The notes under the pieces: model-generated | Seen by the model: the letters and a program-made list of their open reading frames with translations, nothing else | Told to the model about the DNA's origin: nothing | The model's database searches: none | DNA from: Gammaproteobacteria bacterium | Lineage (GTDB): Bacteria > Pseudomonadota > Gammaproteobacteria > Steroidobacterales > Steroidobacteraceae | Reading direction: 5' to 3' | DNA length: 54,662 bases | Assembly (NCBI GenBank): GCA_028870275.1 | Contig: JAGWPY010000032.1 | Coordinates: 1 to 54,662, forward strand | In this document: positions 10,479 through 15,791 of the stretch, piece by piece | Numbering within the stretch: the first letter of the stretch is position 1 | Layout of the letters: every line of letters begins with the position of its first letter | Translations under genes and position numbers: made by a program

Positions 10479-12113
10479 TCAGTTCTCGCGCGCGGGGGCG
10501 TTGCGCTGGCCGTGCCGCCAGTCCGGGAACCGCTCGATGCTCGCCAGCCGGATGCCGACCGCAAAATAGAGTCGTAGGTCCTCGAGCGTGCCACGCACGT
10601 CCCAAGTGGGCAGGTACCGGTCCGCCGGACGCAGATACGCCCGAGAGAAATACCGGTCGACCTGTTCACCGCCCCAGACGGGCCCCATCGCCGCATCGTC
10701 GGGACCGCCGATCGCGTACAGCGAGGGCAGGCCGCGGCCAGCGAACACTGCGGCGTCCGAACGCGCGAACCTCAGGCGCATCGGTTGCGGGTCACCGTGG
10801 ACCAGGCGACCCTGGAGATCGGCGGCCGCGACCAGGAAATGGTCGAGCTGTGACTCGCCGAAGGCGAACGAGGACACGTCGCGCGTCGGCCCGCCGACGT
10901 GCAGCATCTCGAGATCGATGTCGGCGACCGTGCTGGTGAGCGGACAGCGCGGGTGGTCCGCGTACCAGGCGGCGCCCAGCGAACCGTATTCGCCCGCTGT
11001 CGTCGCCAGGAACACGATCGATCGCTGCGGTTCGGCGCGCGCGAAACGTTGCGCGAGCAGCAGCAGACCGGCCACGCCGGTCGCATCATCCACCGCCCCG
11101 GGCAGCGCCGCGGATCGCCCGCCTTCGCTCACCCGGCCGAGCTGGTCCCAGTGGGCGCTGTACAGGACGCACTCGCGCGGATGCCTGCGGCCCTTGACGA
11201 AGGCCGCGACGTTCTGCGAGTCGAAGCGCCGCACGGTCTCGCGTACCGACGCCTGCGCCTCGAGACCGAGATCGAGGGCGCGGAAATCGGCCGCCTGCGC
11301 GCGGGCCGCCGCGACCGCGAAATTCTCGCCCGCGGCCGAGAACACCTGCCGAGCCGCCGACGCGCTCAGCCAGCCCTCGACGAGCGGCTCCGAGGCATGG
11401 CCATCGGCGGCGGGAGCCTCGATCAGCCCCCCGGTGTAGCGGTTCATCAGGGCCGACCAGGGTTCGGCGGCCGGGGAGTCGACCTGCAGCAGCAGCACGC
11501 CTCGAGCGCCGTGACGCGCGGCCTCGGCGAACTTGTAGCGGGCGAGGCCGTAGTTCTCGATCGCGCTGCGCCCCGCGGTGCTCACGCCGGGCGGCAGCCC
11601 GTCGAGCACGAGCACCGTGCGTCCTCGCACGTCGGCGCCGGCGTAGTCGTGGCGATTCAGCTCCAGCGAGTCGATGCCGTAGCCGACGAACACGACGCGG
11701 CTCGCGCGCAGCGACCCCGAGCCGCTCTCCCTGGGGGTCCACAACAGCATGCCGGACGGATAGGCGATCCGTATGGCGGCGCCCTCCTTGCCGGTCGGCG
11801 AGAATGCCAGGCGAGGCGCGACCGCCGGCCGGAGTTCCACGAGCGGCACCTGCTGCGTGTAGGAGTCGCCGAAGGCGGGCTTCAGGCCGAACTCGCCCAG
11901 ACGCCCGGCCAGATAGGCGACCGTGGCATGCGCCCCGGCGGTGCCGGGCCGGCGGCCGTCGAATCGCGCCGACGCGATCGTCGCCAATTCGCGACGCAGG
12001 CCCGCGTCGTCGAATTCGACCGCGACCCGGGGTCGCGGCGGCGCATGGGCGCAGGCGGCGAGCGCGCACACTCCGCCGAGGGTCAACGAGCGGAGCGGAC
12101 GCGGCCAGCGCAT
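10479..12113 (-). CDS. M28-like lipoprotein, probably inactive peptidase
   Basis: This 544-residue lipoprotein (lipobox LAAC, Cys21) has an inserted apical PA-like region (about 130-250) and an M28 aminopeptidase fold. Two metal-site motifs remain: SAHWDQLG (His321, Asp323) and GAVDDATG (Asp342). Others are changed. The usual Glu-Glu pair reads TTAGEYGS (Gly374-Glu375), so the general base is lost. The ligand Asp of the NxD segment is Glu402. RSDHF reads RSDAA (Ala454), and YHxPxD reads YLRPAD (Leu494), removing the last His ligand. The C-terminal WDVRGTLEDL still matches the family. A periplasmic non-catalytic role is inferred. ATG 12113 follows CCCGGAG. Confidence 0.82.
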   Translation of the reverse strand: MRWPRPLRSLTLGGVCALAACAHAPPRPRVAVEFDDAGLRRELATIASARFDGRRPGTAGAHATVAYLAGRLGEFGLKPAFGDSYTQQVPLVELRPAVAPRLAFSPTGKEGAAIRIAYPSGMLLWTPRESGSGSLRASRVVFVGYGIDSLELNRHDYAGADVRGRTVLVLDGLPPGVSTAGRSAIENYGLARYKFAEAARHGARGVLLLQVDSPAAEPWSALMNRYTGGLIEAPAADGHASEPLVEGWLSASAARQVFSAAGENFAVAAARAQAADFRALDLGLEAQASVRETVRRFDSQNVAAFVKGRRHPRECVLYSAHWDQLGRVSEGGRSAALPGAVDDATGVAGLLLLAQRFARAEPQRSIVFLATTAGEYGSLGAAWYADHPRCPLTSTVADIDLEMLHVGGPTRDVSSFAFGESQLDHFLVAAADLQGRLVHGDPQPMRLRFARSDAAVFAGRGLPSLYAIGGPDDAAMGPVWGGEQVDRYFSRAYLRPADRYLPTWDVRGTLEDLRLYFAVGIRLASIERFPDWRHGQRNAPAREN

Positions 12114-12133: not shown

Positions 12134-12424
12134 CTAGCGAACCAAGGCGTACCGCAGGATCATCGCGCAGATCACCGCGACCGTGGCGATGTGCGCGAAC
12201 GACCGCCAGGCGCGCAGTTGCAGCTGCCCGAGGAAACTCGCCGCGGCCGCGGCAGTCAGACAAGCGAAGCCGACCAGCAGCGAGACCAGCCGGGGAACGG
12301 TACCCGCGAGCTCCGGGTGCGATCCGGACATCGACGAGTAGATGATCGAAAGTACCGCGAGGCTGAAGGTCGCGGAGACGGAGGTTCCGAGCAGGATACC
12401 GAACAGGACCGTCAGCGGACGCAT
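12134..12424 (-). CDS. Small membrane protein, unknown function
   Basis: This 96-residue protein has three hydrophobic segments: TVLFGILLGTSVSATFSLAV, VSLLVGFACLTAAAAASFLG and HIATVAVICAMILRYAL. It is probably an inner membrane protein; I recognise no family. ATG 12424 is preferred over a TTG nine codons upstream. It lies 20 bases upstream of the M28-like gene on the same strand and is divergent from prc, so it may be co-transcribed with the lipoprotein gene. Confidence 0.6.
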   Translation of the reverse strand: MRPLTVLFGILLGTSVSATFSLAVLSIIYSSMSGSHPELAGTVPRLVSLLVGFACLTAAAAASFLGQLQLRAWRSFAHIATVAVICAMILRYALVR

Positions 12425-12511: not shown

Positions 12512-14680
12512 GTGATCACCAAAGCGTCGAATGCCGCGCGCTCGCGCTGGATGACCGGCATGGCCGTCGGCCTGGGCGCAGTCGCGCTCGCGGCCCTGCT
12601 CGGCGCTGCGATGACCTCGACGCATGCGACCACGGCGGCGACGAACGGTTCCCCGCCCGCGCTCGCCCCAACCGCCCAGGAAGGCTATGTGGCCCGCCGG
12701 GTCGCGGACATCGTCGCGCGCGAACACTATCGGCGCGAGCCGCTCGACGATCAGCTCTCCAGCCTGATCCTCGATCGCTACCTGAACACGCTCGACGGCG
12801 AACGCAGTTATTTCTACGCAAGCGACATCGCCGAGTTCGATCACTACCGGTATGAGCTGGACGATGCGATCCGCTCGGGCGACATGTCGCCCGCCTTCGC
12901 GATCTTCCGCCGCTACCAGCAGCGCACCACCGAACGCATGAACTACGCGATCGGACTGCTCGCCAAGGAGCCCGATTTCAACGTCGACGAGTCCTTCGCG
13001 TTCGACCGGTCCAAACAGCCCTGGCCGGTCGACCAGGCGGAGATGGACGAGCTCTGGCGCAAGCGGGTCAAGAACGACGAGCTTTCCCTGCTGCTCGCCG
13101 GCAAGAAGTGGCCGGGGATCGTCCAGACGCTGCGCGATCGCTACCAGCACGTGATCCGCAGGATCGACCAGACCAAGCCGGAGGACGTGTTCGAGGCGTT
13201 CATGAACGCATACGTACTTTCGCTCGACCCGCACTCGAATTATTTCTCGCCGCGGGACTCCGAGGAATACAACATCCAGATGAGCCTGAGCTACGAGGGC
13301 ATCGGCGCCTCGCTCCAGATGCACGACGACTATGTCACGGTGGTCGACGTGATCCCCGGCGGCCCGGCCGCGATCAGCGGCAAGCTCGCCCCGAACGACC
13401 GCATCACCGCGATCGGCGAGGGCCCGAAGGGCGACATGGTCGACGTGATCGGCTGGCGGCTGGACGACGTGGTGCAGAAGATCCGCGGCCCCGGCGGCAC
13501 CCAGGTTCGGCTGCAGATCCTGCCGGCGGGCGCGGCGCCGGGCTCGCCGCAGAAAGTGCTGACCTTCACGCGCAATCGCATATCGCTCGACGCACAGGCG
13601 GCTCAGGCGAACATGCGCGAAGTCGAGCGGGACGGCCGCAAGATCAAGGTCGGCGTGATCAAGGTGCCGAGTTTCTACCAGGACTACGACGCGAACCGCG
13701 CGGGGGTCAAGGATTACCGCAGTACCACCCGGGACGTGAAACGGCTGATCGACAAGCTGCGCGGCGAAGGCATGCAGGTGTTGATCATGGACCTGCGTGG
13801 CAACGGCGGCGGCTATCTGCCCGAGGCCGAGTCGATGGTCGGGTTGTTCATCCACCGCGGACCCGTGGTCCAGCTGCGCGACACCACCGGCCACATCGAG
13901 GTCGACGACGACCCGGACCCGGCGATCTTCTATTCCGGTCCCCTGATCGTGCTGGTCGATCGCCTCAGCGCTTCGGCGTCCGAGATCTTCTCCGGAGCGC
14001 TCCAGGACTACGGACGCGCGGTGATCGTCGGCCAGGAGACCTATGGAAAGGGCACGGTGCAGAACGCGCATCCCCTCAATTACTCGCTCTTCGGCCACAA
14101 GCCCGACCTCGGTCAGCTCAACGTCACCATCGGCAAGTACTATCGGGTCACCGGCGGCAGCACCCAGGATCGGGGCGTGATGCCCGACATCGCCCTGCCC
14201 TCGCTGATCGACATTCACGAAGTCGGCGAGAACACGCACGATCGCGCGCTGCCCTGGGACCAGATCCAGCCCGCCGACTTCACGGCAGAGGCCAACCTGG
14301 CGCCGGTGATCGCGGAACTGGGCAAAATGCACGACGTGAGGACCCGCGACAGCGCCGATTTCCGTTACCTCGACGCGGACATCGCCGCGGTGGACGCCAT
14401 GCGCGCCGAGAAGACCTTGTCCCTGTCGCTGAAGGTGCGCCAGGCCGAGCAGGCTCGGGAGGACGCCGCGCGCCTGGCCCGGGAAAACGCCTGGCGGGTC
14501 GCCCACGGCAAGGCGCCGTTGAAGTCCGTCGATCAGATCAAGCACGACGAATCGGCCGGGATCATCCTCGCCGAGGCCTCACAGATCGCCGCGGATTACG
14601 CCACCCTCCCCGCGGGGACGCCGGTTCCGGCGCCGGCCCGGGCGGTGTCGGGTGCGCAGCGCGCCCCGGGCGGTCACTGA
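12512..14680 (+). CDS. prc: Periplasmic carboxy-terminal processing protease Prc/Tsp (S41)
   Basis: This 722-residue tail-specific protease trims or destroys periplasmic proteins with apolar C-termini and, in E. coli, works with NlpI on peptidoglycan hydrolases. It has an N-terminal signal or anchor helix (about 13-32), a helical N-domain, a PDZ domain (about 262-350, YEGIGASLQ through NDRITAIGEG) and the S41 catalytic domain. The Ser-Lys dyad is Ser488 (in SASASEIFSG) and Lys513 (in YGKGTVQ), 25 residues apart as in E. coli Tsp. A C-terminal DUF3340-like helical region follows. The frame is open far upstream, but GTG 12512 follows AGGAG and precedes the signal. Confidence 0.94.
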   Translation: MITKASNAARSRWMTGMAVGLGAVALAALLGAAMTSTHATTAATNGSPPALAPTAQEGYVARRVADIVAREHYRREPLDDQLSSLILDRYLNTLDGERSYFYASDIAEFDHYRYELDDAIRSGDMSPAFAIFRRYQQRTTERMNYAIGLLAKEPDFNVDESFAFDRSKQPWPVDQAEMDELWRKRVKNDELSLLLAGKKWPGIVQTLRDRYQHVIRRIDQTKPEDVFEAFMNAYVLSLDPHSNYFSPRDSEEYNIQMSLSYEGIGASLQMHDDYVTVVDVIPGGPAAISGKLAPNDRITAIGEGPKGDMVDVIGWRLDDVVQKIRGPGGTQVRLQILPAGAAPGSPQKVLTFTRNRISLDAQAAQANMREVERDGRKIKVGVIKVPSFYQDYDANRAGVKDYRSTTRDVKRLIDKLRGEGMQVLIMDLRGNGGGYLPEAESMVGLFIHRGPVVQLRDTTGHIEVDDDPDPAIFYSGPLIVLVDRLSASASEIFSGALQDYGRAVIVGQETYGKGTVQNAHPLNYSLFGHKPDLGQLNVTIGKYYRVTGGSTQDRGVMPDIALPSLIDIHEVGENTHDRALPWDQIQPADFTAEANLAPVIAELGKMHDVRTRDSADFRYLDADIAAVDAMRAEKTLSLSLKVRQAEQAREDAARLARENAWRVAHGKAPLKSVDQIKHDESAGIILAEASQIAADYATLPAGTPVPAPARAVSGAQRAPGGH

Positions 14681-14707: not shown

Positions 14708-15748
14708 TCAGCGCAGCAACAGCGTGAACAGGTCCCAGTAGTCCTCGGCGAGCACGTTCCACTGGGTCGTCGAGCCGGCCTTCGCCGCACGGGCGGGCGA
14801 CAGGGAGTCCGCGGTCGGGACCGTGTCGGCGGGATTGCGGTACTCGCAGACGGCACGCAGCCGCTCGAGCTTGGCCTTGACGAGCACGTTGATCCTCGCC
14901 TGACCGTTCACCGCGGCGACCGCACCCTGGATCCTCTGCATGTAGCCGTCGCACTCGGCCCGCGAACCGAAGGTCATCTCCTGGACACGACGGGCGACCG
15001 CCTCTTTGGCCCTTGCGGCGATCCCGAACCCATCGACGGTCTCGCACAGCAGCTCGGCGTAGCCGATGATCGCGAGGTTGATGGTGCGTCGTGCCGGCAG
15101 GGAAATGCCGGGGAACGGTGCCGCCGGTTCGCCGACGATCGCATTGCGCTCGAGCTGCAGATCACGGACGTCGCCATCGGCCGCGGCCACCTCCGAGCGC
15201 AATGACTGGAGCGCCTTCTGCAGTTCGCGGCGGCGGAAATAGTGCCAGAACGCTCCGAGCCTCGCATGCTCGTTCTCGCCCGAGGACAGCCGCACGCGCA
15301 GCTCGTCGGCACGCACCCGCGCGTCGCGCAGACGTTCGTCCGCCGCGGATAGACGCGACGAGCGTTCCGCCGCGCACTGTTCGCGGAATCTCGCGGTCTC
15401 GCGCTCCTCCTGCTGCCGCGACAGATCGCCGGCGAAAGTCGCGAGCCGCTGATGACAGATCTTCCAGAGCGCGCGCAGCTGATAGAACACGAGCGCGCTG
15501 AACCCGGCGCCCGGGTCGGCGAGCAGTTCGCCGAGCGCGTCGAGCTGTTCCTGGACGCGGATGGTCGCGCCCTCCTGTTGTTTCAGGCGGTCGCGCATCA
15601 GATGAAATTCGTCCTGCAGATCCGCGTAGGCCTTCTTAAGGCCCGCGCGATTCTGGAAGAGCTGCATCAAGCGCTCGTCTTCGGCACCAGCCGGGGCGCG
15701 CTCGCTGCGGAACGGATTCAGTCGGTCGATCAAGCTTGAGTCCCGCAC
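14708..15748 (-). CDS. Coiled-coil protein of unknown function
   Basis: This protein of about 346 residues has no family I recognise. Residues about 30-200 are charged and heptad-like (LMQLFQNRAGLKKAYADLQ onward, then many Glu/Arg/Leu repeats), predicting a long coiled coil. The C-terminal half is globular-looking, with INLAIIGYAELL, EAVARRVQEMTFGSRAECDGYM and a Trp-rich end (TQWNVLAEDYWDLFTLLLR). No signal peptide or membrane helix is seen, so it is cytoplasmic. The start is uncertain: GTG 15748 has GGAG 9 bases upstream, while GTG 15763 and a downstream TTG are alternatives. It sits 28-43 bases downstream of the DUF1249 gene and may be co-transcribed. Confidence 0.7.
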   Translation of the reverse strand: MRDSSLIDRLNPFRSERAPAGAEDERLMQLFQNRAGLKKAYADLQDEFHLMRDRLKQQEGATIRVQEQLDALGELLADPGAGFSALVFYQLRALWKICHQRLATFAGDLSRQQEERETARFREQCAAERSSRLSAADERLRDARVRADELRVRLSSGENEHARLGAFWHYFRRRELQKALQSLRSEVAAADGDVRDLQLERNAIVGEPAAPFPGISLPARRTINLAIIGYAELLCETVDGFGIAARAKEAVARRVQEMTFGSRAECDGYMQRIQGAVAAVNGQARINVLVKAKLERLRAVCEYRNPADTVPTADSLSPARAAKAGSTTQWNVLAEDYWDLFTLLLR

Positions 15749-15791
15749 TCCATGATGCTCCACGGGCAGTCAGGCGGAGCCTTCCCCACGA

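Follow-up and report, generated by a model that had tools for sequence, protein, structure and literature searches.

A predicted lipoprotein with an M28 fold and a dismantled peptidase site, probably retained for a non-catalytic role, in a genus of Steroidobacteraceae

In a 54,662-nt contig of a gammaproteobacterium from the family Steroidobacteraceae (GenBank assembly GCA_028870275.1, JAGWPY010000032.1; referred to here, over its whole length, as the window), we found a gene whose product, P0001, is probably a selected pseudo-peptidase lipoprotein that has kept the M28 fold, lost its peptidase chemistry and been maintained for a non-catalytic job. The catalytic motif is missing, the gene is intact and it evolves under purifying selection, the combination by which a pseudoenzyme is recognized. 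A first-pass annotation made from the DNA letters had already preferred a selected pseudo-peptidase over a decayed gene, and this reading is supported by the occurrence of the gene in 23/23 genomes of the genus, by synteny, by open frames, by omega values well below 1 in the clades that lack the general base, and by a near-complete genome (G015) with no second M28 found. Judged from sequence, the genus appears to contain a well-marked clade of bacterial pseudo-peptidases in which intermediate stages can still be seen. Features of the locus are collected in Table 1, with residues of P0001 numbered from the ATG at 12113.

Table 1. Features of the M28 locus in the window.
Feature	Position	Strand	Remarks
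Probable M28-fold pseudo-peptidase lipoprotein (P0001)	10479..12113	-	544 aa + stop; ATG at 12113; GGAG 10 nt 5'
Predicted signal peptide, ending at LAAC lipobox (Cys21)	12051..12113	-	translation and lipobox pattern
His321 codon, HxD motif, kept in query	11151..11153	-	Arg in 4/21 genus rows
Asp342 codon, bridging ligand	11088..11090	-	kept in 50/50 tree rows
Gly374 codon, replaces general-base Glu	10992..10994	-	alignments to 1amp and family alignment
Glu375 codon, ligand, kept in query	10989..10991	-	family alignment
Glu402 codon, replaces ligand Asp (conservative)	10908..10910	-	1amp and family alignments
Ala454 codon, replaces His of RSDH	10752..10754	-	1amp and family alignments
Leu494 codon, replaces last ligand His of YHxPxD	10632..10634	-	family alignment only
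Small hydrophobic protein	12134..12424	-	96 aa from conserved ATG; directly 5' of M28 gene, 20 nt gap
Prc/Tsp-type S41 protease (TSP_NTD, PDZ, S41, DUF3340)	12512..14680	+	divergent to M28 gene; start codon provisional
351-aa protein near prc	14708..15763	-	conserved across genus; without Pfam hit (E ≤ 0.01)

Site residues, fold and relatives

P0001 matched the M28 family (PF04389) at 98.6 bits against a curated cut-off of 21.3. A PA-like region scored only weakly (15.5 bits, below the PF02225 cut-off of 23.9), and no TPR family was found in a Pfam scan with E up to 1. Residues 18–21 fit the lipobox pattern, which makes P0001 a predicted lipoprotein. The strict pattern recurs in 14/21 rows of alignment A1; the other seven comprise one sequence that is cut (L064) and six in which a Cys was seen by eye, and Cys21 is nearly invariant in that alignment.

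The first-pass annotation had named four replaced site residues (G374, E402, A454 and L494) and four remaining ones (H321, D323, D342 and E375) in an intact reading frame; translation of the 544-aa open frame places all eight exactly there. The catalytic roles given in Table 1 are those that we take these positions to have in M28 enzymes. In phmmer and profile alignments to 1amp, the Vibrio/Aeromonas aminopeptidase, G374 falls on the first Glu of the EE pair and E402 on a ligand Asp, and the A454 column lies on the His of SDH. These alignments end before the last ligand, so that L494 was mapped through the family alignment only. For the latter we used the best 80 of 526 related stretches returned by a scan of genome contigs, one of which (L094) was genus member G022 itself. 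All 79 other loci have Glu in the general-base column of the EE motif and His in the L494 column, where the query has Gly and Leu; P0001 thus lacks the base expected of an active M28 enzyme as well as a complete set of co-catalytic ligands. No relative of P0001 was found in a scan of viral contigs.

The four replacements do not weigh equally. Nine site positions were followed (321, 323, 342, 374, 375, 402, 453, 454 and 494), and the full nine-residue string is present in 75/79 of these loci, the exceptions being L122 (Val342), L146 (Glu402), and L153 and L169 (both Gln454); constancy of Asp342 is partly selected for, because one scan pattern spans it. In L146 the D402E change, and in L153 and L169 the H454Q change, stands alone in an otherwise intact site. 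We therefore rejected the idea that Glu402 or Ala454 could by itself prove inactivity, and the argument is carried by Gly374 and Leu494. According to the title of PDB entry 3bxm, a human M28 enzyme carrying E424A is inactive. With neither the base nor the last ligand, two-zinc peptide hydrolysis would be impossible, and we infer that P0001 is catalytically inactive.

The AF2 model of P0001 (pLDDT 92.8, pTM 0.90) predicts an M28 fold, with lower confidence at residues 171–190 (blocks 77 and 76), and the fold comparison lists contained one domain family, though there may be others. Its pocket geometry does not count as independent evidence, because the input alignment consisted almost entirely of intact-site sequences. 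Against 1amp the model gave Z 30.1 and rmsd 2.8 with 267 residues aligned, and the bacterial M28 aminopeptidases as a group (1amp, BSAP 6hc6 of B. subtilis and Aneurinibacillus 2ek8) are alike in fold at Z of about 30 over 267 to 389 residues. Like them, P0001 keeps the HxD motif, the bridging Asp and the ligand Glu; unlike them, it lacks the general-base Glu and the last ligand His and carries a lipobox. Transferrin receptor 1 is an M28-fold protein that is not known to act as a peptidase. In this receptor the peptidase fold is used for binding, and its structure 3kas aligned to the P0001 model with Z 30.2 over 434 residues. It differs in being a eukaryotic receptor with 14–18% identity to P0001, and catalytic loss in the two proteins was presumably independent.

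Orthologues and the order of losses

Matches to P0001 were found in 23/23 genomes of the genus. Many of the fetched orthologue loci lie on contigs that stop early, and at least 2 flanking genes are shared with the window in every one of the other 22 genomes. On one side of the M28 gene lies a GFO/IDH oxidoreductase gene, often with an HDOD-GGDEF gene in between. On the other side follow the small protein, the Prc/Tsp protease, the 351-aa protein, a DUF1249 protein, a kinase-pyrophosphorylase (PSRP) and PEP synthase, the last named by eye. In L059, L060, L062, L066 and L079 no HDOD-GGDEF gene was found between GFO and M28; the window has one beside its M28 gene. The small hydrophobic protein, which has no Pfam match, is probably the operon partner of the M28 gene; it was found in 19/20 genus loci with a contig reaching that far, the exception being L079.

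The 21 genus sequences of the 50-row tree form one clade (100/100) next to an intact homologue (L073), and again do so (100/100) in a tree of 57 rows. Their frames are open, with L064 cut by a contig end; in the G016 match, the one reported TAG lies upstream of the 548-aa frame that was used. The nine positions read HDDEEDDHH in 29/29 outgroup and paralogue rows of the 50-row tree. Within the genus, the His at 454 is lost in 21/21 rows, Glu374 in 18 (always replaced by Gly, Ala or Thr), and His494 in 16, with Arg the commonest replacement (n = 9). Asp402 is changed in 8/21 rows (4 to Glu), His321 is lost in 4/21 (all to Arg), and Glu375 (one further Asp being counted as kept) and Asp453 are lost in 2/21 each. 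Only Asp323 and Asp342 never change (0/21). The fewest changes needed are 1 at position 454, 1 at 374, 3 at 494, 2 at 402, 1 at 321 and 2 at 375; these counts are minima, because not all deep forks within the genus are resolved.

The losses are nested, since His494 is missing only from tree rows in which Glu374 is missing too. Within the genus the site has been dismantled in such steps: the His of SDH is gone from all rows, the general base from a subset, the last ligand only from base-less rows, and each of Asp402, His321 and Glu375 from a smaller number of rows. The expectation that orthologues would share the same four changes as the query is borne out for the loss of the site but not for the residues that replace it; these differ between species, and we rejected a single set of four changes common to all orthologues. 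Nor is the genus uniformly dead: in three rows (L067, L068 and L079) the losses are confined to the SDH stretch, base and ligands being retained, and these rows have an omega of 0.050, close to that of an intact outgroup (0.045). One of these, L079:8269-9834 (-) in genome G006, is missing a loop of ~11 residues after HxD, and the small hydrophobic protein was not found upstream of it.

Partial copies were left out of the tree and read separately. L086 (G014) has Ala374 with His494 kept and L088 (G013) has Gly374 and Asp375 with His494 kept; with 18/21 tree rows and the partial copies of these two remaining genomes, the base is lost in 20/23 genomes. A second, divergent fragment of the M28 gene lies near a GFO gene in G022 (L087:7209-8036 (-); Arg321, Gly374, Gln402 and His494) and may reflect a strain mixture or a duplication. 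Outside the genus, two M28 genes (L153:3137-4861 (+) and L169:5986-7713 (+)) have Gln for the SDH His and other site positions intact. A shared origin of this change with the loss in the genus was rejected, as these genes did not group with the genus in the 57-row tree.

Selection and evolutionary rate

Codon-based maximum likelihood gave omega of 0.159 for the four most broken sequences (L059, L060, L062 and L063), which lack His321, the base, Asp402 and the last His. Forcing omega to 1 with kappa held lowered lnL from -3981.15 to -4140.77, a cost of 159.6 (2*delta lnL 319). Another base-less set (L072, L074, L076, L077 and L078) gave 0.080 and the query's clade of seven 0.136. Two intact outgroup sets gave 0.045 and 0.013; the outgroup trees are long, namely that of the latter set (outB) and those of a three-genome comparison (M28 0.017, Prc 0.014). 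The N- and C-terminal halves of the M28 protein had similar omega, and the neighbouring Prc gave 0.037 at three of the four most broken loci and 0.035 in the five-row base-less set. For seven pairs, six of them base-less, no resampling upper bound on NG86 omega exceeded 0.38 (60 resamples per pair); with dS close to saturation in several pairs, the NG86 and YN00 estimates are rough. Purifying selection, expected of a selected pseudo-peptidase, is thus present in the base-less clades (omega 0.08–0.16), but outgroup homologues with an intact site are more strongly constrained.

This weaker constraint is also seen against neighbouring genes. The median ratio of M28 dN to neighbour dN, genus vs outgroup, was 2.88 vs 0.84 for Prc, 2.67 vs 1.36 for GFO, 3.97 vs 1.63 for PSRP, 3.82 vs 1.66 for PEP synthase and 2.20 vs 0.83 for DUF1249, which as a ratio of medians is 2.0 to 3.4 times the intact outgroup's. 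The comparison covered 17/21 genus rows (without L061, L063, L064 and L070) and 4 outgroup loci, and for all five neighbours the genus and outgroup ranges were separate, the outgroup being represented by 3 to 6 pairs only. Part of the pattern could therefore be slow decay: the gene would be on its way out, catalysis having become unnecessary, with constraint relaxing and the low omega reflecting gradual loss. Site changes that vary between lineages fit such a course, as does the fate of conserved columns. Among the 145 columns that are conserved across 18 outgroup rows (of 22), 69 stay conserved in 17 base-less rows (L063 left out) and 30 become clearly variable, including site-motif positions 324, 338, 402, 454–456 and 494 and also a middle-domain patch (173–217), which, at a guess, touched substrate; 15 columns are newly conserved. 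On the other hand, omega remains at 0.08–0.16 within base-less clades, the gene has not been dropped from any of the 23 genomes, and the tree rows keep open frames apart from the contig-cut L064. On balance we regard decay as unlikely, and retention of a non-catalytic protein as the probable course.

The rate shift may have begun early. In the base-keeping pair L067/L068, M28 dN was 0.14 vs 0.04 for Prc, which hints that the shift preceded loss of the base; the outgroup-like omega of the three base-keeping rows speaks against a large shift there. The small hydrophobic protein also evolves fast, with NG86 omega of 0.29, 0.70 and 0.62 for the three pairs of L059, L060 and L062, values that are rough for so short a protein.

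Possible roles and significance

A protein that has lost its cutting machinery and is yet kept by evolution suggests a different, non-cutting job. The retained M28 fold, its pocket perhaps remodelled, could act as a binding or scaffold module at a membrane, a plausible role that takes the argument one inference further. The narrow choice of residues at 374 once Glu is lost and the preference for Arg at 494 hint at such remodelling, although the few states at 374 may only reflect single-step codon neighbours. By adjacency, the small hydrophobic protein and Prc are candidate partners. A more specific proposal, which we consider tentative and rather unlikely, is that an M28 protein converted at the Prc locus would serve as a non-catalytic substrate-binding or adaptor subunit of periplasmic proteolysis or of a membrane complex, with the small hydrophobic protein as partner.

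Less probable still is a special case by analogy, in which P0001 would deliver substrates to the neighbouring Prc/Tsp in the manner of NlpI (with Prc) and LbcA (with CtpA), lipoprotein adaptors described in passages of PMC5686067 and PMC11021448. Here too a predicted lipoprotein is encoded beside a Prc-type protease gene, and neighbouring M28, small-protein and prc genes occur both in the genus and, elsewhere in the family, in other genera (L073, L083, L085, L089 and L090). In those other genera, however, the block is the same with an intact M28 site, so that adjacency does not track catalytic loss and is older than it, and adjacency itself shows no interaction. Two further loci, L084 and L091, have prc nearby without a small protein being found, and neither gene was recovered in L092 or L093. 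The known adaptors also carry a TPR domain, in place of which P0001 has an M28 fold.

Alternatively, P0001 could still be a catalyst with altered chemistry, holding one metal on His321, Asp342 and Glu375 or using a migrated residue as base. The query does keep these three residues and Asp323, a Glu-to-His mutant of the base in a related aminopeptidase is functional according to the title of PDB entry 2anp, and passages of PMC7522609 and PMC10211241 describe, respectively, some M28-type proteins that bind one zinc and migrated catalytic residues in some pseudoenzymes. Position 374 of the query is Gly and not His, though, sister rows lose His321 and Asp402 as well while under selection, and constancy across genus rows is confined to Asp323 and Asp342 among the nine positions. 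We hold this explanation to be improbable. An assembly or sequencing artefact, conceivable for a genome of 237 contigs that is 86% complete, was rejected as negligible given the recurrence of base loss in 20/23 genomes.

Term searches of the open-access literature yielded, among the matches listed, no described bacterial M28 pseudo-peptidase, and the outline and term passages of one review (PMC11266112) contain 0 mentions of M28 and transferrin receptor. Bacterial pseudoproteases from other families appear in print, CspC of C. difficile among them. To these the genus contributes, at a single syntenic locus, a series of stages: an intact sister, three members lacking only SDH-region residues, members lacking the base and, finally, members lacking base and last ligand. 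With it the order and cost of active-site loss become directly testable.

Two genus members also encode intact-site paralogues, L080 in the window's own genome (G000) and L081 in G008, the latter genome's intact paralogue being recovered in the contig scan as L131. Both are similar to P0001 in length (550 aa) at about 40% identity, with an M28 domain in L080. They differ from it in having all nine site positions intact, at another locus without common neighbours, and no lipobox Cys was seen in them by eye. In G015 (98% complete), one of the two PF04389 matches is the orthologue and the other a protein with 96 bits for M20 and 30 bits for M28, and no other M28 was found besides the base-less orthologue; automatic names such as 'M28 family peptidase' can therefore mislead. 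G012 has 2 PF04389 matches.
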